This document shows positions 43,895-62,523 of a stretch of DNA of 64,000 nucleotides, one piece after another; position 1 is the stretch's first letter, and each line of letters opens with the position of its first letter. This DNA is from Polynucleobacter rarus (lineage in GTDB: Bacteria > Pseudomonadota > Gammaproteobacteria > Burkholderiales > Burkholderiaceae): NCBI RefSeq assembly GCF_003072505.1, contig NZ_NTGB01000001.1:2607622-2671621 (forward strand). The letters are read 5' to 3'. The notes under the pieces were generated by a model. It was not told the DNA's origin and did no database searches. It saw only the letters and a list, made by a program, of their open reading frames with translations. Position numbers and translations under genes: made by a program.

Positions 43895-43970
43895 GGCCTG
43901 GTAGCTCAGTCGGTAGAGCAGAGGATTGAAAATCCTTGTGTCGGTGGTTCGATTCCGCCCCGGGCCACCA
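43895..43970 (+). tRNA. tRNA-Phe (anticodon GAA)
   Basis: A complete 76-base cloverleaf with GGCCTGG and CCGGGCC acceptor strands, D arm GCTCAGTCGGTAGAGC, anticodon loop TTGAAAA (GAA), T arm GGTGGTTCGATTCCGCC, and encoded CCA. It is the anchor of the downstream accessory region: its 3' half is repeated about ten times over the next 18.6 kb. Confidence 0.97.
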
Positions 43971-43980
43971 AGTAATACCA

Positions 43981-44003
43981 AAACCACCTTCGGGTGGTTT
44001 TTT
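43981..44003 (+). terminator. Rho-independent terminator of tRNA-Phe
   Basis: Perfect 8-bp stem AAACCACC / GGTGGTTT with a TTCG tetraloop and a T run, starting 10 bases after CCA. This hairpin, with the flanking sequence, recurs after several of the displaced tRNA fragments downstream. Confidence 0.92.
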
Positions 44004-44015
44004 CATTTTGATTAA

Positions 44016-44411
44016 TTAAGTTAAGGCGGCGTCATACTGACGACGGCATTTATAAATTTCCGTCAGATTTTCTTGTTCCCAGTTATGAACCGCTTGGTAG
44101 ATTGGACCCAAACTTAATCCAAGCTCAGTCATGGAATATTCAACATGTGGCGGTACTTCAGGAAATACCTGTCTCTTGATAAGTCCGTCTCGTTCTAGTT
44201 CTCGCAGTTGTTGTGTCAACATTTTTTGAGAAATTCCAGCAACTGTCTTCTTAAGTTGATTAAAGCGAACAACGCCTTGTGATGAAAGAACATACAAGAT
44301 CATGCTCTTCCACTTACCTCCAATCATTATAAAAGCATCCCTAATTTCACAACTATTCGCAGTACAGGGGCTATCAACGGAAATTTTTAATGTTTTTTCA
44401 TTGGTTACCAT
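44016..44411 (-). CDS. HxlR-family winged-helix transcriptional regulator
   Basis: A 131-residue regulator of the HxlR (MarR-like) type, with the conserved Cys near the start (SPCTANSCEIRDAF), the core IGGKWKSMILYVLSSQGVVRFNQL, recognition region ISQKMLTQQLRELERDGLI and wing PPHVEYSMTELG. It is divergent from the membrane-protein gene at 44498 across 86 bp of AT-rich DNA, so it may control that gene. It is in the first block after tRNA-Phe. Confidence 0.88.
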   Translation of the reverse strand: MVTNEKTLKISVDSPCTANSCEIRDAFIMIGGKWKSMILYVLSSQGVVRFNQLKKTVAGISQKMLTQQLRELERDGLIKRQVFPEVPPHVEYSMTELGLSLGPIYQAVHNWEQENLTEIYKCRRQYDAALT

Positions 44412-44497
44412 TTGGTGCCTACTTATATATTTTTTATAGATATCTAAAATATACCAAAAGCTAATTAAAAGCTATTTTAAAAAATAGAAGAGGAAAA

Positions 44498-44974
44498 ATG
44501 ATGAAATCAACTGACATAAGAATGAGTGCCAAGATTGGTGCGATGCTTCTATTACTTTGGGGAGTTCTTCACATTTGGGTTGGTGCTGAAGGTATTCATC
44601 AGTATCTTGGTGGAGATATTCAGTCTCAATGGAACATGCTATTGGGTGGAGTTAATGGCTCAAAAGAGACTTTTCAATTTGCTGTCGATCAGATGACTTC
44701 AACTATCCATTCAAGATTGCTCATCAACTTTTGTTTAGATGTTGGTGGTTATGGCGTATTAGCAATCTTTTTATCTTGGATGCTTTGGAAACAAGGATCT
44801 TGGTTGGCTTATTGGATAGCTGTATTAGTTATTGGGATTGGTGATTTAGCATTCCTGTTCAATATGTTGTTATCAGGAATAATTGAATTGAATATCGGGA
44901 CAATTGGCGGACCAGTCCTTTGGTTTATTGTAATTTCAATCACACCATTTGGTTTAATTAAAGTAAAGAGGTGA
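44498..44974 (+). CDS. Small four-helix membrane protein, unknown function
   Basis: A 158-residue hydrophobic protein with about four membrane segments (near residues 13-33, 80-100, 104-126 and 133-153). I do not recognise a functional motif. It diverges from the HxlR regulator gene and has an AGAGGA ribosome site. A regulated exporter, quinone-related or DoxX-like role would be guesswork. Its stop lies about 30 bp before the first displaced tRNA fragment. Confidence 0.75.
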   Translation: MMKSTDIRMSAKIGAMLLLLWGVLHIWVGAEGIHQYLGGDIQSQWNMLLGGVNGSKETFQFAVDQMTSTIHSRLLINFCLDVGGYGVLAIFLSWMLWKQGSWLAYWIAVLVIGIGDLAFLFNMLLSGIIELNIGTIGGPVLWFIVISITPFGLIKVKR

Positions 44975-45003
44975 TTCTTGCGACAGAGTTACTTATCTTA
45001 GCC

Positions 45004-45062
45004 CTGGTCGAATCCGCCCCGGGCCACCAAGAAACACCAAAACCACCTTCGGGTGGTTTTTT
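45004..45062 (+). repeat. Displaced tRNA-Phe 3' fragment 1 plus terminator
   Basis: GGTCGAATCCGCCCCGGGCC followed by ACCA matches the T arm to CCA of tRNA-Phe with a two-base deletion and one substitution. After AGAAACACC comes the same AAACCACC-TTCG-GGTGGTTT hairpin as behind the intact tRNA (45040-45062). It marks the right end of the HxlR block. The anticodon part is too decayed to align with confidence. Confidence 0.85.
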
Positions 45063-45069
45063 ATTTGGA

Positions 45070-45116
45070 TTGGCGGAAGATGAGGCTTCTACACCAAATG
45101 AAGCTCGATCTTCTGG
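45070..45116 (-). pseudogene. Remnant of a HigA antitoxin 3' end
   Basis: About 47 bp after the terminator resemble the sequence at 45716-45760, which spans the last codons and trailer of the intact HigA gene (shared GGCGGA...ATGAG and the exact stretch TGAAGCTCGATCTTCT). After 45116 the similarity stops. It is therefore the tail of a deleted antitoxin cassette. The rest of the 45117-45262 gap holds nothing I can identify except the VOC gene promoter region. Confidence 0.6.
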
Positions 45117-45262: not shown

Positions 45263-45628
45263 ATGATCCTCGGACTCAGAACAGTAATCTACCCAGTAAA
45301 TGATTTAAACAAAGCCAAAGACTGGTATTCACAAGTATTAGAAATGAAGCCCTACTTTGATCAACCTTTTTATGTTGGCTTTCGGGTGGGTGGTTTTGAG
45401 CTTGGACTCTTGCCACAAGGTGAATCATCTACTGATGGTTCACAACTTCTTTGGGGTGTGGTAGATATAGAAAACGCCTTTCAAAGATTATTAGATCTTG
45501 GTGCTCAATCACTTGAGCCAGTTTCTGATGTTGGTGAGGGAATTAGGGTTGCCTCTGTTAAAGACCCGTTTGGAAATCGATTTGGACTTATTCAAAACCC
45601 TAACTTCAATCCAAAACAAGTGAAATAG
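45263..45628 (+). CDS. VOC (glyoxalase/bleomycin resistance) family protein
   Basis: A single vicinal-oxygen-chelate domain pair in 121 residues, starting LRTVIYPVNDLNKAKDWYSQVLEM and ending VKDPFGNRFGLIQNP, both typical of the family. The enzyme may act on a metabolite or bind a toxic compound; the substrate is not predictable. Its stop codon (45626-45628) overlaps the first bases of the next tRNA fragment, so the block has no spacer at its right end. Confidence 0.87.
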   Translation: MILGLRTVIYPVNDLNKAKDWYSQVLEMKPYFDQPFYVGFRVGGFELGLLPQGESSTDGSQLLWGVVDIENAFQRLLDLGAQSLEPVSDVGEGIRVASVKDPFGNRFGLIQNPNFNPKQVK

Positions 45629-45706
45629 GATCAGGCATCCTTCACCCTAGTTCGATTCCGCCCCGAGCCACCAAGAAACACCAAAACCACCTTCGGGTGG
45701 TTTTTT
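45627..45706 (+). repeat. Displaced tRNA-Phe 3' fragment 2 plus terminator
   Basis: Begins AGGATCAGGCATCCTT, a version of the tRNA anticodon stem-loop that keeps the GGAT/ATCC pairing, and continues GTTCGATTCCGCCCCGAGCC then ACCA (one substitution). AGAAACACC and the AAACCACC-TTCG-GGTGGTTT hairpin follow (45684-45706). It separates the VOC and HigBA blocks. Confidence 0.88.
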
Positions 45707-45729: not shown

Positions 45730-46038
45730 TTAGACTAAGTGAAGCTCGATCTTCTTACCAACTGCGGCAGCATATTTTCTAAGAGTGCTTAGACTTGGAG
45801 AATGCTTACCCGTTGCCAAAGAGCTTTCTAATCTAGCAACTGCAGGTGCTTGCGTTCCCATAAGCTTAGCAATTTGAGCCTGGGTTAATCCAGACTCTTT
45901 TCTTGCGGCAAGAATTTCATCAAGAATGGCGAACTCTTCACGATTGAGTTTATCCACCTCAGCTTTAACTGCCGAGTTCTTGAGCATTTTATTAACCATT
46001 TGTTTATGGCTTAGCGTTTTAGTTTTAATTGTTGTCAT
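45730..46038 (-). CDS. HigA-type antitoxin, Xre helix-turn-helix
   Basis: A 102-residue DNA-binding antitoxin. The HTH lies at about residues 50-90 (SGLTQAQIAKLMGTQAPAVARLES, then SPSLSTLRKYAAAVG). It follows the toxin gene with a 14-bp overlap, the HigB-HigA order in which the antitoxin is second. A second, broken copy of this gene lies at 50704-51105 and a tail remnant at 45070. Confidence 0.9.
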   Translation of the reverse strand: MTTIKTKTLSHKQMVNKMLKNSAVKAEVDKLNREEFAILDEILAARKESGLTQAQIAKLMGTQAPAVARLESSLATGKHSPSLSTLRKYAAAVGKKIELHLV

Positions 46039-46357
46039 TTTTTATCTCCTTCATGCGTTGCTTAGCAAGTTTTAATTCTTTATCTGGCGTTTTTTGAGTC
46101 TTCTTAATAAAACTGTGCAGCATGACAATTTCTTGTCCTACCATCGTACAAAAGAAAACTCTCGCAATACCCTCAGCACCTTTAAGTCTTAATTCAAATA
46201 GACCACCACCAAAAGCATCGGTATGCGGCAAACCTAAATTTGGACCATACTCAATCATTCGATCAGTCAAGCCAATGTAACGAGCTTGAAGTGTTACGGG
46301 CAAATTCATGATCTCTTCTTGAACTTCTTGACTGTAATAAATGATGGAATATGCCAT
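46025..46357 (-). CDS. HigB/RelE-family toxin (mRNA interferase-like)
   Basis: A 110-residue phage-derived Gp49/HigB-like toxin: the core GLFELRLKGAEGIARVFFCTM and FIKKTQKTPDKELKLAKQRM are characteristic and carry the basic residues thought to act on ribosome-bound mRNA. The ATG at 46357 is preferred over a TTG two codons earlier, since relatives begin close to the first beta-strand (YSIIYYS). A perfect palindrome lies 6 bp upstream of the start (46364-46385) and is the likely operator. Confidence 0.9.
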   Translation of the reverse strand: MAYSIIYYSQEVQEEIMNLPVTLQARYIGLTDRMIEYGPNLGLPHTDAFGGGLFELRLKGAEGIARVFFCTMVGQEIVMLHSFIKKTQKTPDKELKLAKQRMKEIKNDNN

Positions 46358-46363
46358 ATCCAA

Positions 46364-46427: not shown

Positions 46428-46519
46428 AGGATCAAATTTCCTTGTGTCGGTGGTTCGATTCCGCCCCGGGCCACCACTGAACTACCTGAAGCACCCTAGT
46501 CTAGCGACTGGGGTGTTTT
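46428..46519 (+). repeat. Displaced tRNA-Phe 3' fragment 3 plus terminator
   Basis: AGGATCAAATTTCCTT (anticodon stem-loop version) runs into 37 bases identical to the tRNA from CCTTGTGTCGG to CCACCA (46440-46476). It is followed by a different hairpin, CACCCTAGT / ACTGGGGTG with a T run (46492-46519). It marks the left boundary of the first MazEF block. Confidence 0.93.
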
Positions 46520-46838: not shown

Positions 46839-47081
46839 ATGCAAGCAATTATAAAAAAATGGGGCAACAGCCCAGCATTAAGAATTTCAAGTTCTATCAT
46901 GGAGATGGCTAATTTAAAAATGGAACAGGCGGTTAATATAAATGTGCTGAAAGGTAAAATTATCATTGAACCTATTTCGCCTAAACAACCTAGCCTTGAG
47001 GAAATGTTAGCTGGTATTACTCAAAGCAACCTCCATGCAGAAGAGAATTTTGGCCCTGCAGTTGGAAAGGAAATTTTATAG
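46839..47081 (+). CDS. mazE: MazE-family antitoxin, copy 1
   Basis: An 80-residue AbrB/MazE-fold antitoxin beginning MQAIIKKWGNSPALRIS, with the usual swapped-hairpin N-terminal DNA-binding half and a disordered acidic C-terminal half that wraps the toxin. The stop codon TAG shares its G with the GTG start of the toxin gene. The copy at 61885 differs at only two residues (Ser/Gly near 18 and Met/Leu near 29). Confidence 0.95.
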   Translation: MQAIIKKWGNSPALRISSSIMEMANLKMEQAVNINVLKGKIIIEPISPKQPSLEEMLAGITQSNLHAEENFGPAVGKEIL

Positions 47082-47422
47082 TGCCTAAAAATTACGTTCC
47101 AGATGCAGGTGATGTGGTGTGGCTAGAATTTGATCCTCAAGCAGGACGAGAGCAAGCTGGCCATCGCCCCGCTTTGGTCTTGAGTCCCGCAATTTACAAT
47201 GATAAAGTGAGTTTGGCAATCTGTTGCCCGTTATCAACAAAAGTAAAAGGATATCCATTTGAGGTTGAAATAGAAATGGGTAAAACAACGAGTGTGGTTT
47301 TATCTGATCAGGTTAAATCTTTAGATTGGCGAGAACGTAAAGCAAAATTCAAATCTAAAATAACACCCGCTCAACTAAAAAAAGTACGTCAAAACATAAA
47401 AGTGTTACTTTCTATCGAGTAG
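47081..47422 (+). CDS. mazF: MazF-family endoribonuclease toxin, copy 1
   Basis: A 113-residue PemK/MazF toxin that cuts mRNA. Family motifs are GDVVWLEFDPQAGREQAGHRP-like (start of the SH3 barrel with the catalytic Arg), PALVLSPAIYN, and the S/T-containing LSDQVKSLDWRERKAKF. It starts at GTG overlapping the mazE stop. The stop codon lies 2 bp before the palindromic tRNA-derived site at 47425. Confidence 0.95.
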   Translation: MPKNYVPDAGDVVWLEFDPQAGREQAGHRPALVLSPAIYNDKVSLAICCPLSTKVKGYPFEVEIEMGKTTSVVLSDQVKSLDWRERKAKFKSKITPAQLKKVRQNIKVLLSIE

Positions 47423-47424: not shown

Positions 47425-47513
47425 GACACAAGGATTGAAAATCCTTGTGTCGGTGGTTCGATTCCGCCCCGGGCCACCAAAATCAAATAATGCCCTGCTT
47501 CTTGCGGGGCATT
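47425..47513 (+). repeat. Displaced tRNA-Phe 3' fragment 4 with extended palindrome, plus terminator
   Basis: From 47431 the 49 bases to CCACCA (47479) are identical to tRNA-Phe. The four bases on the left differ from the tRNA in a way that completes a perfect inverted repeat: GACACAAGGATT - GAA - AATCCTTGTGTC (47425-47451), centred on the anticodon. A hairpin AATGCCCTGC / GCGGGGCATT follows at 47489-47513 (one wobble pair). It bounds the MazEF and hydrolase blocks. Confidence 0.93.
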
Positions 47514-47539: not shown

Positions 47540-48505
47540 TTAAGTGAGCTTCATTTGTTTTAAAACTAACTTACCTAAAAGCCCATATGGATTGGCGATT
47601 GTTTCAGGCATCTCAAAATGGTTATAGTTTTGACCAACTATATAGTCAACGGGTTTACCCATATCTTTGACTGCTTTGGCGAAGTCTCTACTCTGTCTTT
47701 GGAAATCAGGTGTTTCAAGATTGCCATGAGCAACAATGATTGGAGTATTTAAAAACTCAAGATGTCTTTGGGTACTTAGAGCATCTTCCATGCTGTCAGT
47801 AAATTTCACATACGAGCTTCTAGCAGATAGTCGAACGGGTTTCAGATCATACATGCCACTACATAAAAGACCACCTTTAATGATATCCATTGGTAAGTCA
47901 TAATCTTTTTTCCAATTTGTGACTAGGGTTACACCGGCTAAATGACCTCCAGAGGAATGTCCAGATAGATAGATCTTATTGGGGTCACCATTAAAGCTAG
48001 AAGCATTTTTATAAACCCAAGCAACAGCCCTTCTTACTTGATCGATCATGGGCATTAAATCGCCACCAGATTCAAAAGCGTTAATAAAATCAGGCACCAC
48101 AAAATGAGCGCCCGCATTTACAAAAGTCTCGGCTTTAAAACCAAAATTCTTGGCTAATCCAGAACGCCATGCTCCGCCATGAATAAAAATATTAATAGGT
48201 GCTTTAGGACGATCGCAGAGATAAACATCAAGACCCTCTATTGGGGTTGGTCCATAAGCAAATCGTTTTGGATTGCCTAGGCGGCTACGAGTGATATCGC
48301 TATTGGAGGCATATCGACTTTGAATTTGTCTAATATTGGGAGCATAAACACTTTGATCATAAGAGGCATCCAGTTCTGCCTGATCCATATCTAGCCATAC
48401 CAAGGGCCCTTTTTGTTTGGGTGGGGTTGAAGATGTAGATTGGGCAAAGGCTGAAGAAACAATTCCAGCTCCCATTGTAAAAAGTAGTGATCGTTTTGTG
48501 TTCAT
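47540..48505 (-). CDS. Exported alpha/beta hydrolase (kynurenine formamidase-like)
   Basis: A 321-residue hydrolase with a signal peptide (MNTKRSLLFTMGAGIVSSAFAQ). The oxyanion motif HGGAWRSG and the nucleophile Ser in SGHSSGGHLAG are visible, and the catalytic His is likely in NYNHFEM. This arrangement resembles arylformamidase and related BD-FAE-type esterases; the substrate is unknown. The open frame reaches 48607, into tRNA fragment 5, but the ATG at 48505 with the signal peptide is clearly the start. Its stop is 3 bp from a palindrome copy. Confidence 0.87.
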   Translation of the reverse strand: MNTKRSLLFTMGAGIVSSAFAQSTSSTPPKQKGPLVWLDMDQAELDASYDQSVYAPNIRQIQSRYASNSDITRSRLGNPKRFAYGPTPIEGLDVYLCDRPKAPINIFIHGGAWRSGLAKNFGFKAETFVNAGAHFVVPDFINAFESGGDLMPMIDQVRRAVAWVYKNASSFNGDPNKIYLSGHSSGGHLAGVTLVTNWKKDYDLPMDIIKGGLLCSGMYDLKPVRLSARSSYVKFTDSMEDALSTQRHLEFLNTPIIVAHGNLETPDFQRQSRDFAKAVKDMGKPVDYIVGQNYNHFEMPETIANPYGLLGKLVLKQMKLT

Positions 48506-48560
48506 ATTGCCCCCATTAGATTCTTGATTATGGGGGAATTTGTTAATAAAGGCAAAGAAC

Positions 48561-48640
48561 CGGATCAAACATCCTCGGCCCTGGTCGATTCCGCCCCGGG
48601 CCACCAAAAAATACCAAAACTATCTTCAGGTGCTTTTTTA
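48561..48640 (+). repeat. Displaced tRNA-Phe 3' fragment 5 plus decayed terminator
   Basis: CGGATCAAACATCCTC is a version of the anticodon stem-loop; CTGGTCGATTCCGCCCCGGG and CCACCA (ending 48606) match the tRNA 3' end with a small deletion shared with fragment 1 (GCCCTGGTCG). The following CCAAAACTATCTTCAGGTGC is a degenerate relative of the TTCG hairpin. Confidence 0.87.
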
Positions 48641-49116: not shown

Positions 49117-49863
49117 TTGCTTAAAAACTTGGAGAGATTTATCCGATTCTTTTTTGTTGTATTCACCTTATTATCCCTATCTGGATTAGCTCAGACTTCA
49201 AACGACGTCAACTCTACAGGCTCTGGAGCAGCAAATACTTCAGTTGGAGGTGGTCAATCAAATCTATTGGGAAATAATATTGGTACGCAGCAGAACTTAA
49301 CTAACGTGACAGGTGGATATGGCAACGTAAACACGAGTACGCCAGTAAACACCACATCAAATGTTAATTCCGTTCCAACTATGTATGCCCCAGGTTTAAC
49401 GGCAGCAGGTAGCGATGTCTGCCTTGGCTCTGTATCCGCGTCAGGATCTATCTTGGGACTCGGATTGGCTGGAGGCAGCACATATGTGGACGATAACTGT
49501 GTTTTATTAAAGAACAGTCAAAGGATGGCGGCTTTAGGCTTTGGTAATGCAGCAGTAGTAATGATGTTGCAAAACAAAGATGTTGAAAAAGCGATTAGAA
49601 CTTCAAGCCCATCAGTTTATCTGCAGGTATCAAAAGATAGGTTAGCTAACTTGCAGGCTGAGTTTGATGATGCAAAAGAGATGGGTGAGTCAACCTTTGA
49701 TCTTGAAGAAAAACTCATCAAGGCTAATAAAGAAGTGCGCATCATTGCTAGGCGAATAAAGGCTTTCCCTGGCTTACCGGAAAAGGCAGTAGAAATTCCA
49801 CTAAACCCCTCAAACGGTCAGGCTAAAACAGCCAGTGACCCAAGAGAAATCCTCAATCACTAA
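49117..49863 (+). CDS. Secreted protein of unknown function, Asn/Gly/Ser/Thr-rich N-terminal region
   Basis: A 248-residue protein, not recognised. A signal peptide (hydrophobic FFFVVFTLLSLSGLAQT) is followed by about 80 residues rich in Asn, Gly, Ser and Thr, then a segment with two cysteines (DVCLGSVSASGSILGLGLAGG, DDNCVLLKNSQRM), then a charged helix likely to form a coiled coil (about 165-215). The start is uncertain: the frame opens at a TTG (49117), and a TTG at 49129 is also possible. The next gene begins 10 bp later and is also exported. Confidence 0.65.
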   Translation: MLKNLERFIRFFFVVFTLLSLSGLAQTSNDVNSTGSGAANTSVGGGQSNLLGNNIGTQQNLTNVTGGYGNVNTSTPVNTTSNVNSVPTMYAPGLTAAGSDVCLGSVSASGSILGLGLAGGSTYVDDNCVLLKNSQRMAALGFGNAAVVMMLQNKDVEKAIRTSSPSVYLQVSKDRLANLQAEFDDAKEMGESTFDLEEKLIKANKEVRIIARRIKAFPGLPEKAVEIPLNPSNGQAKTASDPREILNH

Positions 49864-49873
49864 GGTTAAAAAA

Positions 49874-50626
49874 ATGAAAAAGCTACTAGTATCATCCGTA
49901 CTAACAATTTCTACTGCTGTATTTGCAGCTCCACCCACCGCATTTACCTTTGTGGCCCCAGCGTCGGTAGCTGTTGCTCCAGCATTAACCAACTTACTTG
50001 GAGTGGCCAATGCATTTAAAGCTGTAGGAACAGCATTTGCTTTGAATGACTCAACAGCAACTGGCTTATTAGATCAGGCCTCGAAAAATTTAACGCTTTC
50101 AGTAGATATAAAAAATATTGATACCTCAGCCATAAACTCTCCAGCTTATAACAGTACTACTGGGCAAATTACCTGGGTCAATAACTTCGCAAGCTCAGTT
50201 TCATCTTCAAATGTCTGGATTCAAACAGATACCGCTGGCTACGATACAGCAGCTAAGGCATTTCGTGATGCTGGTGGCGCATACGCGGTTACTGCAATTA
50301 TGACTGGCGGATCGGGCGTAAATAATTTGCTGTCAGCTATTGATGGTACAACGCGAATAGTTAATGGTGTAAGTTATATTCCCGACAGCTCTTTTAATGC
50401 TCTAGTTACAAGCTTCAATACGGGTTTAACGGTGAGTCAAAAAATAGCTGACATGGCAACTATAGCAACTGCTTTGACCGCCATTCAAGCCCAAGCATCT
50501 GCAATAGATATTGCTGGAGCAGTAGCTGTCACTACATTAAATACTTTGGTGTTACCTGCAGCTGGTAAGAATTCGGCGTCCTATAGCACTTTAAACGATT
50601 TATTGTTATATAACGCTTTACAGTAA
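49874..50626 (+). CDS. Secreted Ala/Ser/Thr-rich protein of unknown function
   Basis: A 250-residue protein, not recognised. A clear signal peptide (KKLLVSSVLTISTAVFAAPP) precedes a low-complexity body rich in Ala, Val, Ser, Thr and Asn with no cysteine and few charges, suggesting an exported or surface-associated fibrous or adhesive protein. The ATG at 49874 is chosen because it gives the signal peptide. It is cotranscribed with the preceding secreted-protein gene. Confidence 0.65.
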   Translation: MKKLLVSSVLTISTAVFAAPPTAFTFVAPASVAVAPALTNLLGVANAFKAVGTAFALNDSTATGLLDQASKNLTLSVDIKNIDTSAINSPAYNSTTGQITWVNNFASSVSSSNVWIQTDTAGYDTAAKAFRDAGGAYAVTAIMTGGSGVNNLLSAIDGTTRIVNGVSYIPDSSFNALVTSFNTGLTVSQKIADMATIATALTAIQAQASAIDIAGAVAVTTLNTLVLPAAGKNSASYSTLNDLLLYNALQ

Positions 50627-50641
50627 TCGTTGATGCCTCGT

Positions 50642-50696
50642 GAAAAACCGAACGGTGACAATTGATTCGACCGGTTTTTTCATTTGGTCTGGCGGA
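50642..50696 (+). repeat. Terminator and rearranged tRNA/terminator junction
   Basis: GAAAAACCG and CGGTTTTTTC form arms around a 21-base loop after the secreted-protein genes. The stretch GATTCGACCGGTTTTTTCATTTGGTCTGGCGG fuses a scrap of tRNA T-arm-like sequence to the trailer (TTTTTTCATTTGGTCTGGCGG) that follows fragment 2 at 45701-45721. It therefore looks like a degraded cassette boundary. Confidence 0.5.
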
Positions 50697-50703
50697 TGAG
50701 TGT

Positions 50704-51105: not shown

Positions 51106-51237
51106 ATTGAATTTTCCACAACCTTCTAAATAATTCGATAATTAACAATATCAGAGTGACTTTAATAAGTTTGAATATAAAAGGACCCCACCCTAATAAT
51201 GGTTATTGACACCATATAATAGTATGGGTGAGATGGT

Positions 51238-51736: not shown

Positions 51737-51760
51737 GTTGGCCCTCCTTATGCTTAAAAC

Positions 51761-55402: not shown

Positions 55403-55414
55403 TATTCTTAACTG

Positions 55415-55999
55415 ATGAGTCAATCCCTCTCCAAGCTCGTTAAAGAAATTCGCTCTTGTACCTTGTGCGCCAAGCATTTGCCATTGGGGCCGCGACCCAT
55501 TATTCAAGTCAGTAGTTCTGCCAAAATTCTCATTGTTGGTCAGGCCCCTGGTAGCCGCGTTCATGAAACCGGAATTCCATTCAATGACCCAAGTGGCGAT
55601 CGTTTAAGAGAATGGATGGGAATAAATAAAGAAGTTTTCTATGATGACAAAAAAATCGCTCTGGTACCAATGGGCTTTTGTTTTCCTGGAACAGTTAAAT
55701 CAGGCGATCTGCCACCCAGATCAGAGTGTGCTGATACATGGCGAGTCAAACTATTAGAACAATTACCCAATATCAAGCTAACCATCATTGTTGGTCAATA
55801 TGCTCAAGCATGGCACTTAGATAAAGGCGGTAAAGAGAATTTGACTGAAACAGTTATGGCATGGAAAGAATACTGGCCTAAAGCAATTCCATTGCCGCAT
55901 CCAAGCCCAAGAAACAATATTTGGCTAAAAAAGAATCCTTGGTTTGAGGAAGAGGTATTGCCCTCTCTTAGAGGAAAAGTGAAAGCTGTATTGAAATAA
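55415..55999 (+). CDS. Uracil-DNA glycosylase superfamily protein
   Basis: A 194-residue protein of the UDG fold. Motif 1 is LIVGQAPGSRVHETGIPFNDPSGDRL, and motif 2 is PLPHPSPRN near the end. An early CTLCAKHLP pair of cysteines could contact a cluster, but the full four-Cys set of family 4 is not obvious. It may repair deaminated bases or have another nucleic-acid role. Its stop codon (55997-55999) overlaps the start of tRNA fragment 7. Confidence 0.83.
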   Translation: MSQSLSKLVKEIRSCTLCAKHLPLGPRPIIQVSSSAKILIVGQAPGSRVHETGIPFNDPSGDRLREWMGINKEVFYDDKKIALVPMGFCFPGTVKSGDLPPRSECADTWRVKLLEQLPNIKLTIIVGQYAQAWHLDKGGKENLTETVMAWKEYWPKAIPLPHPSPRNNIWLKKNPWFEEEVLPSLRGKVKAVLK

Positions 56000-56078
56000 G
56001 ATTAGACATCCTCAACAATGGTCGATTCCGCCCCAGGCAACCAAGAATCTCAATAGCCCACTTGTTGGGTTATTTTCT
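55998..56078 (+). repeat. Displaced tRNA-Phe 3' fragment 7 plus terminator
   Basis: AAGATTAGACATCCTC (anticodon stem-loop relic) leads to GGTCGATTCCGCCCCAGGCA and ACCA, with two changes from the tRNA. A hairpin AATAGCCCA / TGGGTTATT with a T-rich tail follows (56052-56078). The layout and the abutting gene stop match fragment 2. Confidence 0.82.
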
Positions 56079-56284: not shown

Positions 56285-57784
56285 GTGAATAAAAAGACAA
56301 TAAATTCCTCTTTAGCAGATCGGCCACTTTTTTCTGGCTTGATATGCATTGGAATTGCATCAATTCTGAGTTTGGCCTGTACTGCTCTCTTGGGCATAGT
56401 CGATATTGCCAACATTGTGATGATCTTTTTGTTAAGCACTTTTTTGATAGCCACTTCATTGGGCCGAGATGCTGCCATATTCTCGGCCTTTATCAATGTC
56501 GTTTTCTTTGATTTCTTTTTTGTGCCCCCCAGATTCTCATTCTCTGTAGACGATAGTCAGTACCTCATTACTTTCTTAGTGATGATGATTGTCGGTTTAG
56601 TAACAGGCCATTTGGCCGCAAAATTAAAAGAGCAGATTAAAGATGTTTCAGCCAGAGAAAGGTTGGCAAAAGCACTTCAAAGTTTATCCCGCGGCCTCTT
56701 TAGCGCCCAATCAGATGAGCAGATTGTTCAAGTTTCTAAATCTGCTCTAGAAGTGCCCCTAGGTATTGAAATAGATTTATTCATTACCGAGAATCTAGAT
56801 CAGTTAAAGATTGACAAGTTTGATATGCAATCTGTTGCTTGGTCGATGCAAAGTGGTACTCGGATATTTAATGAGGTTGATGAGGTGGATGGGAAATCCA
56901 TCATTTATCTTCCGATTCGCTCTGAATTAAAGACACTGGGTATTCTTGTAGCATCTGATTCCACAAAGTCCTTAAGGCACTATGGTCGTGATGATTTACT
57001 ACAAACCGCCGCAAATCTCATTGCGTTGGAAGTTGTTCAACTGCGTTCTGCACAAGCTCGGGAACTCAGTAAAGTAGAGGCCGCAACAGAGCGTTTGAAA
57101 AGTGCCATTCTCTCCTCCCTTTCACACGATCTTCGTACGCCATTGACAACAATGATTGGTTTGGCTGAAAGCCTACAAGAGCGTAATCAAGGAATTAATT
57201 CTCAGAGTAAGGCTGATCTTGAAACTATTCGAAGTCAGGGCTTAAGACTTTCAAGCATGATTGGCAACTTGCTGGAGATGGCAAGACTGCAGACGCAAGG
57301 CCCCACCCTTAAAAAAGAATGGCAACCAATAGAAGATGTAATTGGTTCCAGTATTAAACACTTTTCTACATCGTTTCCTAAAAGCATCGTGAAGACAAGT
57401 ATTACAAGTGATGTACCGCCCTTATATTTTGATGAAGTATTAATTGAGCGGGTACTTTGCAACTTGCTTGAAAATGTCGCCAAGTATTCGCTTGAATCTG
57501 CCACCATTGAAGTGCTTGTTAGGAAGAACGAACAATTCGTTGAAGTATCTGTAATTGATGCAGGTACTGGCTTTGCTCAAGAGCCTAGTCAATTATTTGA
57601 GATGTTTGCCAGAGGAATTTCTGATACGAATAAGTCGGGCATGGGATTAGGACTTGCAATTTGTAAAGAAATTATTGAGGCGCATGGCGGCTCTATATCG
57701 GCAAAGAACAATGAATCCAAAGCTGGCTCTGTAATTACCTTTACTTTACCCATTACCGAAAATTCTGAATTGCCTAAGCTATGA
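56285..57784 (+). CDS. KdpD-like sensor histidine kinase, short form
   Basis: A 499-residue kinase matching the C-terminal part of KdpD: a four-helix membrane module (DUF4118-like, about residues 15-110), a GAF-like region (about 130-250), HisKA with His281 in SLSHDLRTPLTT, and the ATPase domain with GMGLGLAICKEI. The N-terminal KdpD and Usp domains of the long form are missing. It starts at GTG 56285 and overlaps the response regulator gene by 4 bp. It likely senses potassium or turgor-related cues. Confidence 0.88.
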   Translation: MNKKTINSSLADRPLFSGLICIGIASILSLACTALLGIVDIANIVMIFLLSTFLIATSLGRDAAIFSAFINVVFFDFFFVPPRFSFSVDDSQYLITFLVMMIVGLVTGHLAAKLKEQIKDVSARERLAKALQSLSRGLFSAQSDEQIVQVSKSALEVPLGIEIDLFITENLDQLKIDKFDMQSVAWSMQSGTRIFNEVDEVDGKSIIYLPIRSELKTLGILVASDSTKSLRHYGRDDLLQTAANLIALEVVQLRSAQARELSKVEAATERLKSAILSSLSHDLRTPLTTMIGLAESLQERNQGINSQSKADLETIRSQGLRLSSMIGNLLEMARLQTQGPTLKKEWQPIEDVIGSSIKHFSTSFPKSIVKTSITSDVPPLYFDEVLIERVLCNLLENVAKYSLESATIEVLVRKNEQFVEVSVIDAGTGFAQEPSQLFEMFARGISDTNKSGMGLGLAICKEIIEAHGGSISAKNNESKAGSVITFTLPITENSELPKL

Positions 57785-58470
57785 CTAATACAGTGACAAA
57801 AGTTTTAGTAATTGAAGATGACGCCGATATTCGGGGGCTGATTATCAAAGTGATTAAAGGTATGGATTTGATAGCCTTGGAGGCCCAGACAATTAATGAT
57901 GGCACTCAAATAGCCGCCAAAGAGAAGCCCGACTTAATTATTTTGGACCTAGGTTTGCCTGATGGCGACGGTATTGCTTTTATTAATAACTATCGTAGTT
58001 GGTCTACCAATCCCGTCCTCGTTCTCTCAGCCAGAGTTCAAGAGCATGAGAAGGTAAAGGCACTTGATGCAGGCGCCGACGATTACCTTACCAAGCCGTT
58101 TGGTACCGCAGAGCTGATGGCAAGAATGCGTGTGCTACTAAGACGCTTGTCACAATCAGATACCAACACGCCAACCTTTAGCTTTGGTGATGTGAAGATT
58201 GATCTCAGTCTTCGTAAGGTTACTAAAGTTGATGAAGAAATTCATTTAAGCCCTATTGAGTATCAATTACTAAACATCTTGCTAACAAATAGCGGCAAGG
58301 TAGTGACACATCGTCAGTTACTAAAAGAAGTATGGGGCGGTCAACATACTGAAGATAACCACTACCTACGAATTTATATGGGTCACCTCCGCCAAAAGTT
58401 AGAGGATGACCCAACTCAACCGAAGTTTTTATTAACCGAAACAGGCGTTGGATACCGCCTAGACATATAA
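57781..58470 (+). CDS. KdpE-like OmpR-family response regulator
   Basis: A 229-residue regulator with the receiver (phospho-acceptor Asp56 in LIILDLGLPDGDG) and a C-terminal OmpR-type winged helix (HLSPIEYQLLNILLTNSGKVVTHRQLL, RIYMGHLRQKLEDDP). It is coupled to the kinase gene by an ATGA overlap and ends 18 bp before the transporter gene, so it probably controls that gene. Confidence 0.93.
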   Translation: MTNTVTKVLVIEDDADIRGLIIKVIKGMDLIALEAQTINDGTQIAAKEKPDLIILDLGLPDGDGIAFINNYRSWSTNPVLVLSARVQEHEKVKALDAGADDYLTKPFGTAELMARMRVLLRRLSQSDTNTPTFSFGDVKIDLSLRKVTKVDEEIHLSPIEYQLLNILLTNSGKVVTHRQLLKEVWGGQHTEDNHYLRIYMGHLRQKLEDDPTQPKFLLTETGVGYRLDI

Positions 58471-58488
58471 CCAAGAAACGCAGAGGTC

Positions 58489-60447
58489 ATGATGGAAAAG
58501 ATTATTAATTTTTTTAGAGGCAAAGCCTTAGATCCGATGGATCCAAAGACTCGCCATGCAATCTCAATTATTCCTTTACTGGCATGGGTGGGATTAGGAG
58601 CAGACGGACTGTCATCCTCTTGCTATGGTCCAGAGGAGGCATTCTTGGCTTTGGGCGCTAATCATAATTTAGCGCTGTTCTTGGCGATGGCTACTGCTGT
58701 AACCGTTTTTATTATTGCACTTGGCTACAACCAAATTATTGAACTCTTTCCTACTGGGGGTGGTGGATATAAAGTTGCTACAGCATTACTTGGTTCTAAA
58801 GCGGGCTTAATTTCTGGATCAGCTCTATTGGTTGACTATGTATTAACGATTGCTATTTCTCTTGCAAGCGGAGTTGATGCGGCATTTAGTTTGGTGCCGC
58901 CAGAGTATCAAGACTATAAATTGATCATTGAATTGGGCTTAGTAGTGTTCATGATCTTTTTGAACTTTAGAGGCATTAAAGAGTCAATCTTGATTTTGTT
59001 GCCAATCTTTTTAGGTTTTTGTATTACCCATGCCATTCTGATCGCTTACGGTATTGGTATTCATGCGCCTGAGCTTGGCAATCTATTTCCTAATGCGATC
59101 TCCGAAGCTAATGCACTGGGCTCTAATTTAGGTTGGATTATGGTTGCATCCTTATTCTTAAAAGCCTACTCATTAGGTGGCGGTACCTATACAGGCTTAG
59201 AGGCAGTATCTAATAATGTGAACACACTAGCTGAGCCAAAAGTACCTCATGGAAAAAGAACCATGTGGTACCTAGCATTTTCTTTGGCAATTACTGCTGG
59301 CGGCATCATTTTGTTGTACATGCTTTGGGGGTCACAGAAAGTAGATGGACAAACTCTCAACGCAACAGCATTTGGCGCAATTATTAATCACCTTAATCCA
59401 AATGGCGGCGGTGTTAACGATATTGCTTTAGCTGTTGTTCTCTTGCTTGAGGCTGGCTTATTATTCGTTGCCGCTCAGGCGGGATTCTTAGATGGCCCAA
59501 CAGTGCTCTCTAATATGGCCACTGACTATTGGGTACCAAGACAGTTTCGCGAGCTATCAAGCCGCTTGGTAAGGCAGAATGGTATCTTGGTCATGGGCAT
59601 TGCCGCATTTTTGATTTTGATTTTTACAGGTGGTTCAGTAGCTACATTAGTAGTGCTTTACAGTATTAATGTGTTCTTAACATTTAGCTTGTCCTTGTTT
59701 GGTATGTCAGTTTATTGGGTGAAGCACAGTAAAGATGCTGGCTGGATTAGACACTTCTTATTAAGTGCATTGGGATTTGTGGTGACAGCTTCTATTCTTG
59801 CTATCACCATCAGTGAAAAGCTATTTGAAGGTGGCTGGTTAACCATCCTTGTCACTTCGGTAGTGGTAGTTCTCTGCCTCTTGACGAGAAAGCACTACGA
59901 GAACTTTAGGGTTCAATTATCAAAAGCAGATGAAGCCTTTCCAGACCTACCAGCAGGAAATTCTGTAACACCACTGCAGATAGATAAATCAATGCCTGCC
60001 GCTATCGTGTTGGTTAGTCGTCATCGTGGCGCTAGTATGCATGCTTTGATGTGGGCGATGAGATTATTTCCTCACTATAAGAATTATGTATTCGTTGCAG
60101 TGGGTGAAGTAGATGCTACCAGCTTTGAAGGCCATCAAAAAATGGAAGAACTCAAAGAGAAGATGGAAAAGTCGATGTCTTACTATGTTGATTTCTGTCA
60201 TCAACATGGATTGGCCGCAACTTCAAAAATTGGATTTGGTACCGACCCAATCAAAGAGTTTATGAAGCTCACAGACGAGGCTTATGTGGAATTTCCAAAC
60301 GAGAGCGTTTGCTTCTCTAGTAAGCTACTCTTGGCTAAAGCAAACTTCTTTACTAAATTCTTGCATAACCAGACTCCATTAGAGATTCAAGAGCGTTTGC
60401 ACTTTAGCGGCCGTCAAATGATCCTATTACCAATGCGGGTAGGTTAA
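58489..60447 (+). CDS. APC-superfamily potassium transporter, KimA-like
   Basis: A 652-residue transporter with about twelve helices and a soluble C-terminal domain of some 170 residues. The APC core shows GADGLSSSCYGPEEAFLALG and the glycine-rich GGGGYKVATALLG with DYVLTIAISLASG, close to KimA (YdaO), a high-affinity K+/H+ symporter. The KdpD/KdpE-type genes immediately upstream support potassium uptake. No kdpFABC genes are seen in the window. Confidence 0.82.
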   Translation: MMEKIINFFRGKALDPMDPKTRHAISIIPLLAWVGLGADGLSSSCYGPEEAFLALGANHNLALFLAMATAVTVFIIALGYNQIIELFPTGGGGYKVATALLGSKAGLISGSALLVDYVLTIAISLASGVDAAFSLVPPEYQDYKLIIELGLVVFMIFLNFRGIKESILILLPIFLGFCITHAILIAYGIGIHAPELGNLFPNAISEANALGSNLGWIMVASLFLKAYSLGGGTYTGLEAVSNNVNTLAEPKVPHGKRTMWYLAFSLAITAGGIILLYMLWGSQKVDGQTLNATAFGAIINHLNPNGGGVNDIALAVVLLLEAGLLFVAAQAGFLDGPTVLSNMATDYWVPRQFRELSSRLVRQNGILVMGIAAFLILIFTGGSVATLVVLYSINVFLTFSLSLFGMSVYWVKHSKDAGWIRHFLLSALGFVVTASILAITISEKLFEGGWLTILVTSVVVVLCLLTRKHYENFRVQLSKADEAFPDLPAGNSVTPLQIDKSMPAAIVLVSRHRGASMHALMWAMRLFPHYKNYVFVAVGEVDATSFEGHQKMEELKEKMEKSMSYYVDFCHQHGLAATSKIGFGTDPIKEFMKLTDEAYVEFPNESVCFSSKLLLAKANFFTKFLHNQTPLEIQERLHFSGRQMILLPMRVG

Positions 60448-60465: not shown

Positions 60466-60585
60466 AAAACCATCCTTCGGGGTGGTGTTATTTTGTCCTT
60501 TAAAAGGACACTTCATGTATGGGGTTCACCGACCACAACAAGGACATCACATCCTTGTGTCAGTCAAATCCCTATCACACTACCA
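60466..60585 (+). repeat. Terminator relic, palindrome and displaced tRNA-Phe fragment 8
   Basis: AAACCATCC-TTCG-GGGTGGTGTT (60467-60490) is a variant of the tRNA terminator. An exact GTCCTTTAAAAGGAC palindrome follows (60495-60509), then AGGACATCACATCCTTGTGT and CAGTCAAATCC...CTACCA (60541-60585), a heavily mutated anticodon-to-CCA fragment. Here the order is terminator, palindrome, tRNA fragment. Confidence 0.75.
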
Positions 60586-60627
60586 AACCTATTCCTTCAA
60601 GTTTGCAAAATTTAGTAATGATTAGAC

Positions 60628-60948
60628 TTAAATTAGGGCTTCAATCCCTTTATTTTTTAATATAGAAAGCAGTTTAAGTGAAGGACCGCTTGGTTTCTTT
60701 TCGCCAGTTTCCCACTTTTGTATTGTAGACGTGCTTGTATTTAGAACAGCCGCAAAAACAGCTTGGCTAAGGCGTTCTTTTGTTCTTAATTGTTTGATGA
60801 CTTTAGGTTGAAAAGCTTTCACTTCTAAACTCTTTAATGCATCAAATTCAGCCATTTGTTTTTTATTGATTACTCCACTTTTTTTGAGATCAGCAAAGGT
60901 TTCCTGCATTTCTTCAATGATGCGGCTATTCTTTTTAAGTGTGGTCAT
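60628..60948 (-). CDS. HigA-type antitoxin, Xre helix-turn-helix (second type)
   Basis: A 106-residue antitoxin with HTH at about residues 55-95 (LRTKERLSQAVFAAVLNTSTSTIQKWETGEKKPSG), typical of antitoxins paired with RelE/HigB toxins. It follows the toxin gene with a 14-bp overlap. Its first 30 residues (MTTLKKNSRIIEEMQETF) resemble the N-terminus of the chimeric pseudogene at 50704-51105. Confidence 0.9.
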   Translation of the reverse strand: MTTLKKNSRIIEEMQETFADLKKSGVINKKQMAEFDALKSLEVKAFQPKVIKQLRTKERLSQAVFAAVLNTSTSTIQKWETGEKKPSGPSLKLLSILKNKGIEALI

Positions 60949-61321
60949 GATTTACCTCTATTAGTGATTTCTCTAGAATTAACTTATTAATTTCATTGCT
61001 TGATAGACCAAGCAATACTTCAGCAATCTTTTGTAAATTCGCAAGTTCAACATCGTTGATATTAGCTCGTTCGTTTTTTGTAAAGGCAAAAATAAAAAAC
61101 CAATGTTCACTGAGCTTGGTTGCAACGATCGTTCTGGCGCCGCGACTCTTTCCCCTATTACCAATAGCTACTCGTTTCTTATAAACATTACCGCCTAAGT
61201 CAGCTTCATATAGCCCCTTTTCTATTTCCTTAACCGCTACTAGCAAGTCCGTATCAGAAAGATCCGACTTGTTAAACCACTTAGAAAAAGCTTTTGTTTT
61301 GAAGATACGTTTTTTTGCCAT
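60935..61321 (-). CDS. RelE/HigB-type toxin (second type)
   Basis: A 128-residue toxin of the RelE/ParE superfamily (YgjN-like), with the pattern FKTKAFSKWFNKSDLSDTDLL, VYKKRVAIGNRGKSRGARTIV and WFFIFAFTKNERANI. The basic RGKSRGAR loop and the F-x-KNERANI strand are diagnostic. It is expected to cleave mRNA at the ribosome and be neutralised by the adjacent antitoxin. Confidence 0.92.
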   Translation of the reverse strand: MAKKRIFKTKAFSKWFNKSDLSDTDLLVAVKEIEKGLYEADLGGNVYKKRVAIGNRGKSRGARTIVATKLSEHWFFIFAFTKNERANINDVELANLQKIAEVLLGLSSNEINKLILEKSLIEVNHDHT

Positions 61322-61673
61322 GTTCGTAATATAGCACTAAGTGGTATAGATATCAACCGCTTAATTAATGCTGATTTAATGTCCTTTTAAAGGACAGGTC
61401 TTCATTGTGGCGCCTCAATAATTATATTAACTTATAGTTCGACTCCTATTAATGAAACAAGCTCATTTCTTTATTTGATTGTAGTAACTAAACCAATTTG
61501 TAATCCTTGTGTAAGTCAAATCCCACTATCCCACCACGAAGTTATGTAATCCCTGCGTTGGTCAAAATAACTAAACCAAATCAATGCCATAGAATCACCT
61601 ATCCAAGCAGTGCGCACAAAGTTTCGATATGGTGGGGTTACCTTGGCATCTTTGAAGCGATGTCGAGTCTAGC
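61322..61673. other. Gene-free stretch with palindrome and two tRNA scraps
   Basis: It holds the reversed palindrome GTCCTTTTAAAGGAC (61381-61395), a mutated tRNA piece AATCCTTGTGTAAGTCAAAT...CCCACCA (61502-61536) and a shorter scrap AATCCCTGCGTTGGTCAAA (61549-61567). The toxin promoter must lie near 61322-61380. No gene is credible. Confidence 0.6.
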
Positions 61674-61750
61674 AAGGGAGTTGAAAATCCTTGTGTCGGT
61701 GGTTCAAATACGCTCTGAGCAACCAAACCACCTTCGGGTGGTTTTTTTTA
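61674..61750 (+). repeat. Displaced tRNA-Phe 3' fragment 9 plus terminator
   Basis: AAGGGAGTTGAAAATCCTTG continues into TGTCGGTGGTTCAAATACGC and ends AACCA (61725); the anticodon region is intact but the T arm and acceptor are mutated. The exact AAACCACC-TTCG-GGTGGTTT hairpin and T run follow at 61725-61750. It is the left boundary of the second MazEF block. Confidence 0.85.
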
Positions 61751-61835
61751 TTAACCCTAGTAACATTAAATTTAAAAATAAATGGTGAACGATAGTTATC
61801 TTTACTTCAAAATCTTCAACTAGGAAGTACTAATG

Positions 61836-61872
61836 TTGACATTTCTCATTCGAGTATATACAATGTAGAAAC
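61836..61872 (+). promoter_or_regulatory. Sigma-70 promoter of MazEF copy 2
   Basis: TTGACA (61836-61841) and TACAAT (61859-61864) with exactly 17 bp between them, in a context otherwise matching the copy at 46789. The -35 box here is the consensus sequence. Confidence 0.8.
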
Positions 61873-61884
61873 ATGGGGGATAAA

Positions 61885-62127
61885 ATGCAAGCAATCATCA
61901 AAAAGTGGGGCAACAGCCCGGCATTAAGAATTTCAGGTTCTATCATGGAGATGGCAAATCTAAAATTGGAACAGGCGGTTAATATAAATGTGCTGAAAGG
62001 TAAAATTATCATTGAACCTATTTCGCCTAAACAACCTAGCCTTGAGGAAATGTTAGCTGGTATTACTCAAAGCAACCTCCATGCAGAAGAAAATTTTGGT
62101 CCTGCAGTTGGAAAGGAAATTTTATAG
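61885..62127 (+). CDS. mazE: MazE-family antitoxin, copy 2
   Basis: 80 residues, differing from the first copy only at two positions (Gly for Ser and Leu for Met). An in-frame ATG at 61873 exists, but the first copy has a stop codon in that position and the common ATG at 61885 gives the same protein, so that start is used. It overlaps the toxin start by one base. Confidence 0.95.
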   Translation: MQAIIKKWGNSPALRISGSIMEMANLKLEQAVNINVLKGKIIIEPISPKQPSLEEMLAGITQSNLHAEENFGPAVGKEIL

Positions 62128-62468
62128 TGCCTAAAAATTACGTTCCAGATGCAGGCGATGTGGTGTGGCTAGAATTTGATCCTCAAGCAGGACGAGAGCA
62201 AGCTGGCCATCGACCCGCTTTGGTCTTAAGTCCCGCAATTTACAATGATAAAGTGAGTTTGGCAATCTGTTGTCCGTTATCAACAAAAGTAAAAGGATAT
62301 CCATTTGAGGTTGAAATAGAAATGGGTAAAACAACGAGTGTAGTTTTATCTGATCAGGTTAAATCTTTAGATTGGCGAGAACGTAAAGCAAAATTCAAAT
62401 CTAAAATAACACCCGCTCAACTGAATAAAGTACGTCAAAACATAAAAGTGTTGCTTTCTATCGAGTAG
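62127..62468 (+). CDS. mazF: MazF-family endoribonuclease toxin, copy 2
   Basis: 113 residues, identical to the first copy except Asn for Lys in QLNKVRQNI near the C-terminus. It has the same GTG start, overlap and downstream palindromic tRNA site. A high nucleotide identity with copy 1, with mostly silent differences, indicates a recent duplication or two insertions of the same cassette. Confidence 0.95.
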   Translation: MPKNYVPDAGDVVWLEFDPQAGREQAGHRPALVLSPAIYNDKVSLAICCPLSTKVKGYPFEVEIEMGKTTSVVLSDQVKSLDWRERKAKFKSKITPAQLNKVRQNIKVLLSIE

Positions 62469-62470
62469 CT

Positions 62471-62523
62471 GACACAAGGATTGAAAATCCTTGTGTCGGT
62501 GGTTCGATTCCGCCCCGGGCCAC
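62471..62523 (+). repeat. Displaced tRNA-Phe 3' fragment 10 with extended palindrome
   Basis: The same perfect inverted repeat as after MazEF copy 1 (GACACAAGGATT - GAA - AATCCTTGTGTC, 62471-62497), continuing with exact tRNA sequence to GGGCCAC (62523). CCA is broken, and no terminator of the usual type follows. It is the last clear tRNA fragment in the window. Confidence 0.92.

Follow-up and report, generated by a model that had tools for sequence, protein, structure and literature searches.

A genus-wide array of tRNA-Phe-bounded gene cassettes in Polynucleobacter that resembles an integron

Introduction

Integrons are the textbook bacterial platform for collecting single genes; their attC sites are recognised as folded single strands and keep a conserved structure. 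Cis-mobilizable elements (CIMEs) are integrase-less units that lie between att copies, are mobilised in trans and stack in tandem. The subject of this work is an array of short gene cassettes behind the tRNA-Phe gene of Polynucleobacter rarus (assembly GCF_003072505.1, contig NZ_NTGB01000001.1, positions 2,607,622 to 2,671,621; this 64-kb stretch is called the window) and its counterparts across the genus, which is widespread in freshwater and in which such one-gene or few-gene cassettes occur nearly unchanged across diverged species. Related systems are described in the parts of the published accounts on which we draw. In the additive flexible genomic islands of Alteromonas, a conserved tRNA gene is the insertion target for cassettes (PMC4119200). 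Islands of Ca. Methylopumilus contain recurring 20-nt copies of tRNA-Lys, have sizes from 330 bp and encode 79-80% proteins of unknown function (PMC10872708); the same account describes tycheposons as elements of 4-200 kb with a tyrosine recombinase. The pdif modules of Acinetobacter plasmids are small and are thought to be moved in trans by the host recombinase between short sites (PMC12907356, PMC13141974). No description of the Polynucleobacter tRNA-Phe array was found in the open-licence literature, and the words 'tRNA', 'integrase' and 'cassette' are absent from the main text of PMC5644125.

An initial annotation, made from the window sequence alone, had proposed one integron-like system at this gene, driven by a recombinase acting in trans. 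The integron-like layout and the lack of a tyrosine recombinase in the window stand. The array is not one system, and the search described below found no recombinase tracking with insertions in its integron-like part.

Two classes of displaced site

The single tRNA gene in the window, which belongs to a genome of 3.16 Mb, is tRNA-Phe(GAA) (43895-43970, + strand), the attB- or attI-like platform of the array. A 24-mer from its 3' end occurs in seven copies in the window, the gene included, at up to three mismatches; all are on the + strand, as the initial annotation had claimed for its fragments, and none arose in 100 shuffles. Ten displaced fragments had been listed, each said to run from the anticodon to CCA. 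When these places were locally aligned to tRNA positions 27-76 and compared with 3,000 shuffled stretches, eight were never equalled (45004, 45627, 46428, 47425, 48561, 55998, 61674 and 62471), 60541 was marginal (equalled in 0.3% of shuffles) and 52253 was not significant (equalled in 53%), the fragment alone being indistinguishable from chance. The full extent from anticodon to CCA applies to 46428, 47425, 61674 and 62471, which are of the type that we call class A, while 45004, 45627, 48561 and 55998 have unbroken identity only from the T-arm onward and belong to class B, the motif described below being worn in the first of them. The array continues beyond the window, with extra sites at G000:C1 2672077-2672138 and 2673889-2673938.

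Matches to the tRNA 3' end were equally one-sided in other genomes. The first 20 genomes yielded 110 forward matches, 20 of which are the tRNA itself, and one reverse match, with none for a reversed control pattern (up to seven mismatches); 34 further stretches gave 198 forward and no reverse matches (up to six mismatches). The latter were picked from 151 genomes of the genus for strong matches to R1, a sequence model of class B, a choice that favours large arrays.

Across 54 array stretches from 53 genomes (G007 is represented twice), we mapped 261 displaced sites, 45 of class A and 216 of class B. In class A sites, identity to the tRNA spans from about position 32, in the anticodon loop, through CCA; the split is a threshold, class A requiring at least 14 of 20 identities at tRNA positions 32-51. 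Class B sites have unbroken tRNA identity only from the T-loop (about position 54), preceded by a conserved motif, AGGATnAGGCATCCTnGGCCCTGG, which the tRNA itself lacks. Its consensus, TAGGATnAGGCATCCTCGGCCCTGG, comes from an alignment of 51 of the 64 sites in the first set; eight were excluded for having more than five mismatches or lying outside the window reference, and five were left out by choice as near duplicates or odd. Over the 216 class B sites, conservation begins about 28 nt before C56 and extends rightwards through CCA, an A-rich spacer and a terminator. Nothing more is conserved inside the cassettes, so that arm-type sites are not visible in class B. To the eye, TTCGATTCCG is flanked by an imperfect inverted repeat made up of ATCCTnGGCCCTGG and, on the right, CCCCGGGCCACCAAGAA. 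Folding of the consensus site gives two hairpins (z -1.2 to -2.1 versus shuffles), with a right arm that hardly varies, and no known RNA family other than the tRNA was detected at the sites.

The single system of the initial annotation thus divides into two. Class B, with its own motif, is the integron-like part, whereas class A blocks look like ordinary anticodon-loop insertions, comprising phage-like or two-recombinase elements and small passengers.

Cassettes shared as whole units

Cutting the 54 stretches at their sites produced 250 blocks, some of which are composites, since sites beyond six mismatches are missed. Class B sites end 209 of them (median length 1,050 bp, range 298-16,292) and class A sites the other 41 (median 3,830 bp). 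Shared clusters, 37 in number, contain 121 blocks. The most widespread class B cassette, cluster Aa, carries a BrnT-type toxin gene and was found in 11 genomes. Cluster Ad (1,330 bp) is present in six genomes at 97.8-99.8% identity and at differing places in the row; 43 of the 54 stretches include the tRNA gene, and where it is missing ordinal places are relative (the stretches of at least G098 and G115 are rows away from the tRNA).

Cassettes travel without their neighbours. Among 203 shared block pairs, the right neighbour belonged to the same cluster once and the left neighbour once, neighbours without a cluster being counted as different. Flank identity is known for 85 of these pairs and, being computed from blastn pieces of at least 300 bp, leans high; the cassette was nevertheless more alike than its flanks in 78 of the 85, by more than 10 points in 59. 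The extreme pair, from G010 and G013, has a cassette identical over 573 bp versus flanks at 71.7%. The median length difference was 2 bp over 189 class B block pairs, and the median identity of flanking DNA was 76.2% over 402 pairs. In arrays with at least four sites, 420 of 893 alignments (at least 80% identity and 300 bp, each pair seen from both sides) had both ends at sites, compared with a mean of 18 and a maximum of 42 for shifted sites. Blocks are thus shared as whole units bounded by the fragments, and a check proposed with the initial annotation, that block borders coincide with fragments across genomes, turned out in its favour, at the level of species rather than strains. Near-identical single cassettes occur in different species and contexts; they are gained, lost and reordered singly, as integron cassettes are.

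The form of the cassettes is also integron-like, as a majority tendency rather than a strict rule: most have one gene, one orientation and a site at the 3' end. Exactly one open reading frame (ORF) of at least 80 aa was found in 121 of the 209 class B blocks and none in nine. In class B blocks of up to 2.5 kb, 184 ORFs point in the direction of the tRNA and 66 against it (p 5e-14). The stop codon falls within -10 to +12 nt of the motif start in 123 of the 169 blocks whose last ORF is on the + strand, and the overlap of the VOC and UDG-family stop codons with their sites, reported in the initial annotation, was borne out at 45619-45681 and 55987-56050. Since unrelated genes have the motif at their stop codons, the origin of the cassettes is testable. 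Mismatches to the tRNA grow with distance from it (mean rho 0.30 over 25 arrays, positive in 18, Wilcoxon p 0.002), which is what the entry of new units beside the tRNA would produce; the pooled rho is 0.16 (n=215), and the first position is not the lowest.

Cargo was surveyed with Pfam and PADLOC on 86 class B cluster representatives of at least 80 aa from the first 20 genomes. It is mixed: the 86 proteins matched 112 Pfam families, the commonest of which, MFS, had four members. The idea of a defence island was set aside; the 18 PADLOC families detected occurred in one or two proteins each, and the strongest matches were to the candidate-defence model PDC-S43 (8e-35) and DrmC (4e-29), with one member each.

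Distribution in the genus and the order

The tRNA-Phe array is a genus-wide trait. R1 matched at least 147 of the 151 genus genomes at E<=1e-4 and had two or more places in at least 138 of them, one place usually being the tRNA itself. Among 300 genomes of the order, seven had a match at E<=1e-9: four of the genus, and G284, G386 and G445. G284, from another family of the order, has a class B site beside tRNA-Phe, and the matches in the other two are weaker. In the G284 locus (L217:600-1380), this class B site stands alone, with a short block before it and, by eye, a similar terminator on both sides.

Eighty loci were also obtained through the neighbouring ntrX-like gene, and 44 of them have a tRNA-Phe-like 3' end (up to five mismatches). 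Thirty-three (L073 to L126) are from Burkholderia, Paraburkholderia, Cupriavidus and other betaproteobacteria outside Polynucleobacter; all have a single copy except L122, which has two. Eight are from Polynucleobacter, of which five (L049, L050, L058, L059 and L060) have a class B-type copy downstream and three only the tRNA. The remaining three are unclassified metagenome-assembled genomes with one copy each.

In complete genomes, R1 also matches sites away from tRNA-Phe. Class B-type sites lie behind partial tRNA-Phe copies in G098, G010, G095, G013 and G123, so the platform seems to need the 3' sequence and not a working tRNA; one partial copy in G098 is called a tRNA-Phe by ARAGORN. Ectopic partial copies were also seen in L199, L228, L234, L235, L239 and L223, most with class B-type sites behind them, and in L239 a gene resembling, by eye, an insertion sequence (IS) transposase ends beside the copy. 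On the 5' side of the gene and away from it, displaced tRNA-Phe 5' parts covering about positions 1-33 to 1-42 were observed (G002:C1:2154522, G011:C17:141748, G018:C1:2022680, G020:C49:17935 and G005:C4:61989). Integrase genes lie between these parts and the tRNA in G002, G011 and G018, indicating that elements probably insert on the 5' side as well.

A proposed mechanism for cassette gain

We favour, with moderate confidence, an integron-like cassette array on tRNA-Phe whose class B recombinase acts in trans, and we infer a circular intermediate, a site-specific enzyme, an exact crossover and an insertion order as follows. A class B cassette comprises a tRNA 3' end, a terminator, mostly one gene and, at its stop codon, a motif of about AGGATnAGGCATCCTnGGCCCTGG. 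In free or circular form, it would recombine with the tRNA gene, or with a further copy of the T-arm/acceptor segment, inside that identical stretch. The incoming end would rebuild the whole tRNA and its terminator, and the old 3' end would be pushed downstream behind the cassette motif. Repeated insertion would build a row whose youngest unit lies next to the tRNA. The recombinase would come from the host or from a transient helper and would not be encoded on class B cassettes. Class A blocks would be integrations of the conventional anticodon-loop kind, of which some bring an integrase of their own and many are integrase-less passengers.

The breakpoints are consistent with exchange in the 21-bp T-arm/acceptor stretch that the sequences share; the fully identical segment common to the tRNA and the cassettes is about 21-23 bp. 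At the right end, 43 class B pairs from 13 clusters were compared, each at least 95% identical and with different right neighbours. Identity mostly stays near 0.9 as far as the end of the motif, is mostly near or above 0.9 in the T-arm/acceptor and drops steeply beyond A76. In the 16 pairs (nine clusters) compared at the left end, the sequence before the motif is that of the neighbour, and the sequence after the site is largely common. Derived letters at positions 55 and 57 follow the left cassette (three pairs each, one cluster each) and never the right neighbour, which suggests a crossover somewhere to the right of 57. Positions 61 and 73 follow the left cassette in two pairs each, and positions 63 and 65 each follow the left cassette in one pair and the right neighbour in one.

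Several observations weigh against this mechanism, those on recombinases being given in the next section. The motif itself begins with TAG, which boosts the stop-codon tendency. Identity dips to 0.63-0.76 at three motif positions, and allele tracking is sparse and mixed, position 67 following the right neighbour in two pairs and the left cassette in one. Terminators, crudely sorted, are of mixed type in 17 of the 37 clusters and of a single type in 20. In 41 class B pairs that share at least 95% identity but differ in their right neighbours, the terminator is retained in 33 and the motif (at least 90%) in only 18. This mixing points to added exchange by homologous recombination or to fast change of the site. 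In clusters Am, Bh and Be, the terminators are of several exchangeable types, which were seen to change places between cassettes that are closely alike in other respects.

Because terminators are sometimes swapped, homologous recombination is a serious rival, although as the sole process we consider it rather unlikely. RecA would exchange cassettes after DNA uptake by means of the repeated handle of motif, T-arm/acceptor and terminator (about 45-85 bp). The mixed terminators fit this, as do motifs that differ between copies otherwise 98-99% identical, the lack of a tracking recombinase among the matches listed, and an ectopic copy of cassette Af in G098, where local sequence runs up to the terminator hairpin and takes over only there. 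Yet flanks are only 68-83% identical in the 22 pairs with the largest excess of cassette identity, and the fully identical segment is short. Homologous recombination also leaves unexplained a conserved left motif that is absent from the tRNA, the stop-codon tendency, the strand bias and the scarcity of shared neighbours.

Recombinases and class A elements

The initial annotation saw no integrase in the array, and this holds: Phage_integrase has no match in the window and seven elsewhere in the genome. All seven PF00589 matches of the source genome lie below the TIGR02249 cut-off of 265 bits, the best, which is XerD-like, scoring 127; the TIGR02249 scan, which covered this genome, thus found no integron integrase (IntI). 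Integrase-like ORFs were sought on the 54 array stretches and 18 secondary stretches with our own profile (eight seed proteins, E<=1e-3). They occur in seven of the 41 class A-ended blocks, in none of the 209 class B-ended blocks and in four of the 18 secondary stretches (G098, G115, G047b and G009a).

A recombinase tracking with fresh insertions, as the initial annotation had envisaged, was sought for class B and not found among the matches listed (PF00589 in 25 genomes, with matches listed down to E 2.6e-8, and then in 12, with G001 in both sets, and PF00239 in 15 genomes). No tyrosine recombinase among them is common to all genomes except XerC- and XerD-like genes, which are so named by analogy with the copies of the source genome. 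Resolvases (PF00239) are present in only four of the 15 genomes. G001 has at least nine R1 matches and only two tyrosine recombinases among the matches listed, one XerC-like and one XerD-like; G123 and G130 have three each among the matches listed. With so few tyrosine recombinases in genomes that bear class B, the enzyme would be XerC or XerD, a recombinase of a non-tyrosine type, or a helper that comes and goes. Circular class B cassettes were not seen in a search of viral contigs with three exact patterns (0 matches). A helper phage or plasmid was looked for and set aside, with no viral contig, no plasmid match and 11 phage records with weak partial matches.

The first of these enzymes would make the host XerC/XerD pair the mover of class B cassettes, by analogy with the proposal for the pdif modules of Acinetobacter. 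XerC- and XerD-like genes do top the recombinase match lists and are the only tyrosine recombinases listed in G001; the system is genus-wide, and the class B site is short and without arms. Its G+C-rich core is, by eye, unlike the E. coli-type dif pattern, and that pattern had no match at up to three mismatches in five genomes, hence there is no local yardstick. Altogether, we regard the Xer pair as an improbable candidate.

Outside closed blocks, three stretches have integrase-like ORFs near class B sites. The one in G115 is 17 kb long, bounded by class B sites and carries two such ORFs. It is probably composite, since a known cassette lies inside it and the part with the integrase shares 84-87% identity with a class A element of G013. 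G098 has one integrase-like ORF at a distance of 3.9 kb on the left side of a worn class B site, where a left border is missing; G096 has two that follow its last class B site, where a right border is missing.

A further rival reading is that the whole row grew by accretion of decayed integrative elements, each block being an integrase-less remnant of a phage or island (CIME-type); the G115 stretch could be such an element at class B sites. The integrase-like genes of the seven class A blocks agree with accretion, as does L169, a viral contig of 13,065 bp with a 51-bp terminal repeat, whose start coincides exactly with that of the class A sequence, TTGAAAATCC...CCA, and whose genes include those for a Zot-family protein and a phage integrase. 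For class B, accretion is disfavoured by the 209 closed blocks without an integrase-like ORF, the lack of arm-type flanks, lengths that are near-constant across species and copies that are 97-100% identical; decay would not preserve one minimal unit in many species. Accretion is, therefore, an unlikely explanation, and we retain the integron-like array with a recombinase in trans for class B.

Some features of the class A elements were observed in passing. L169 (1-13065) is apparently circular and resembles a filamentous phage, with an attP equal to the part of tRNA-Phe that begins in the anticodon loop and ends with CCA. Two recombinase-like ORFs, of about 424-436 aa and 188-221 aa, are found together in class A elements of about 13-14 kb. 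The ORFs at 15445-16728 and 19410-19982 of L131 both match Phage_integrase, the large one just below the Pfam cut-off, and similar ORFs are present in blocks of G013, G014 and G020.

The array in the window

To the right of the tRNA gene, block 1 (44016-44974) contains an HxlR regulator (44016-44411, -) and a 158-aa protein without a Pfam match (44498-44974, +). It ends at class B site 1 (44975-45037, +), whose T-arm fragment starts at 45005 and whose left motif is worn. Block 2 is a VOC/glyoxalase gene (45263-45628, +), the TAG stop of which overlaps the motif of class B site 2 (45619-45681, +). Block 3, a Gp49-type toxin with an HTH antitoxin (45730-46363, -), is followed by a class A-type site from the anticodon arm to CCA (46428-46476, +). 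An 80-aa partner gene without a Pfam match and the first copy of a PemK toxin (47081-47422) make up block 4 (46839-47422, +); just before the next class A site (47431-47479, +), an extended palindrome, ACACAAGGATTGAAAATCCTTGTGT, begins and overlaps it. Block 5 is an alpha/beta hydrolase ORF (47540-48607, -) whose true start, judged by eye, is probably at about 48505, and class B site 3 (48550-48613, +) is the best R1 match of the genome (E 1.5e-17).

The composite block that comes next (49117-52182) encodes two proteins without a Pfam match, an HVO_A0114-type regulator and one unknown protein, and includes a shortened copy of an HTH antitoxin (50854-51105, -). Beyond the claimed decayed fragment with the non-significant alignment (52253-52292, +) are genes for a cytochrome c, a CarboxypepD_reg/Vgb-lyase-like protein, a GNAT protein and a UDG-family protein (52593-55999, +); the stop codon of the last overlaps class B site 4 (55987-56050, +). 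Between the GNAT and UDG-family genes, a terminator-like remnant without a T-arm was noticed by eye (55375-55410). The GNAT gene is a separate cassette in G012, where it clusters with a block of G150; together with the site-less remnant, this suggests that two cassettes were fused here by loss of a site. A sensor kinase, a response regulator and an APC permease follow (56285-60447, +), the first two with homologues within a class A block of G012.

The right part of the array begins with the marginal decayed fragment (60541-60590, +) and a RelE-type toxin with an HTH antitoxin (60628-61321, -). A decayed class A-type site (61677-61725, +) precedes the second PemK toxin-antitoxin pair (61873-62468, +), whose toxin gene (62127-62468) was named by near-identity to the first copy, and a class A site follows it (62477-62523, +). 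The PemK block is thus present twice in one array, at 94.8% DNA identity over 707 bp, with differing left-hand parts. As to the toxin-antitoxin cassettes of the initial annotation, four complete modules do exist in the window, but all lie in class A-ended blocks, and class B cargo is mixed.

Comparison with known systems

tRNA-targeted additive islands are known; judged against the open-licence literature, the tRNA-Phe class B motif, the small-unit form and the genus-wide shuffling of single units look new. As in the additive islands, variable cassettes are added at a conserved tRNA gene, here at the same place across the genus; the tRNA and the taxa differ. In the parts of the sources used, those islands are described without a separate conserved motif, a tendency towards one-gene units or statistics on shuffling across species.

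CIMEs are a good match for class A, and throughout the array the tRNA 3' end is rebuilt and the old 3' end displaced. Class B units are far smaller than CIMEs and have their own motif, and no integrase-bearing relative at a class B site has been established, the exceptions outside closed blocks being those in G115, G098 and G096. pdif modules, as far as the sources used describe them, have dif-like sites and are mainly plasmid-borne, whereas the array site is derived from tRNA-Phe and chromosomal. Tycheposons are likewise tRNA-bounded cargo in streamlined aquatic bacteria; they have their own tyrosine recombinase, which class B lacks and class A elements possess in part.

The closest likeness is to integrons. 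Both consist of rows of small, often single-gene, mostly like-oriented cassettes that have a conserved 3' site and move singly, and in both, new cassettes probably enter at the platform end. They differ in that the source genome has no integron integrase and the platform of the array is a working tRNA gene, in that each array cassette carries a tRNA 3' end and usually a terminator, and in that the array site is conserved in sequence. More tentatively, the array could represent a new class of cassette capture, in which a living tRNA-Phe gene serves as attI, a tRNA-derived double-strand site as attC and a host or hidden recombinase as the enzyme, with a gene pool shared almost throughout the genus. 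Were a recombinase acting in trans proven, tRNA genes could be counted among the platforms of the integron-like kind, and a route could be named by which genome-streamlined plankton draws on its gene pool. In layout, orientation, stop-codon tendency and single-cassette traffic the array is like an integron, and it is set apart from integrons by the integrase: working like one is not the same as being one.

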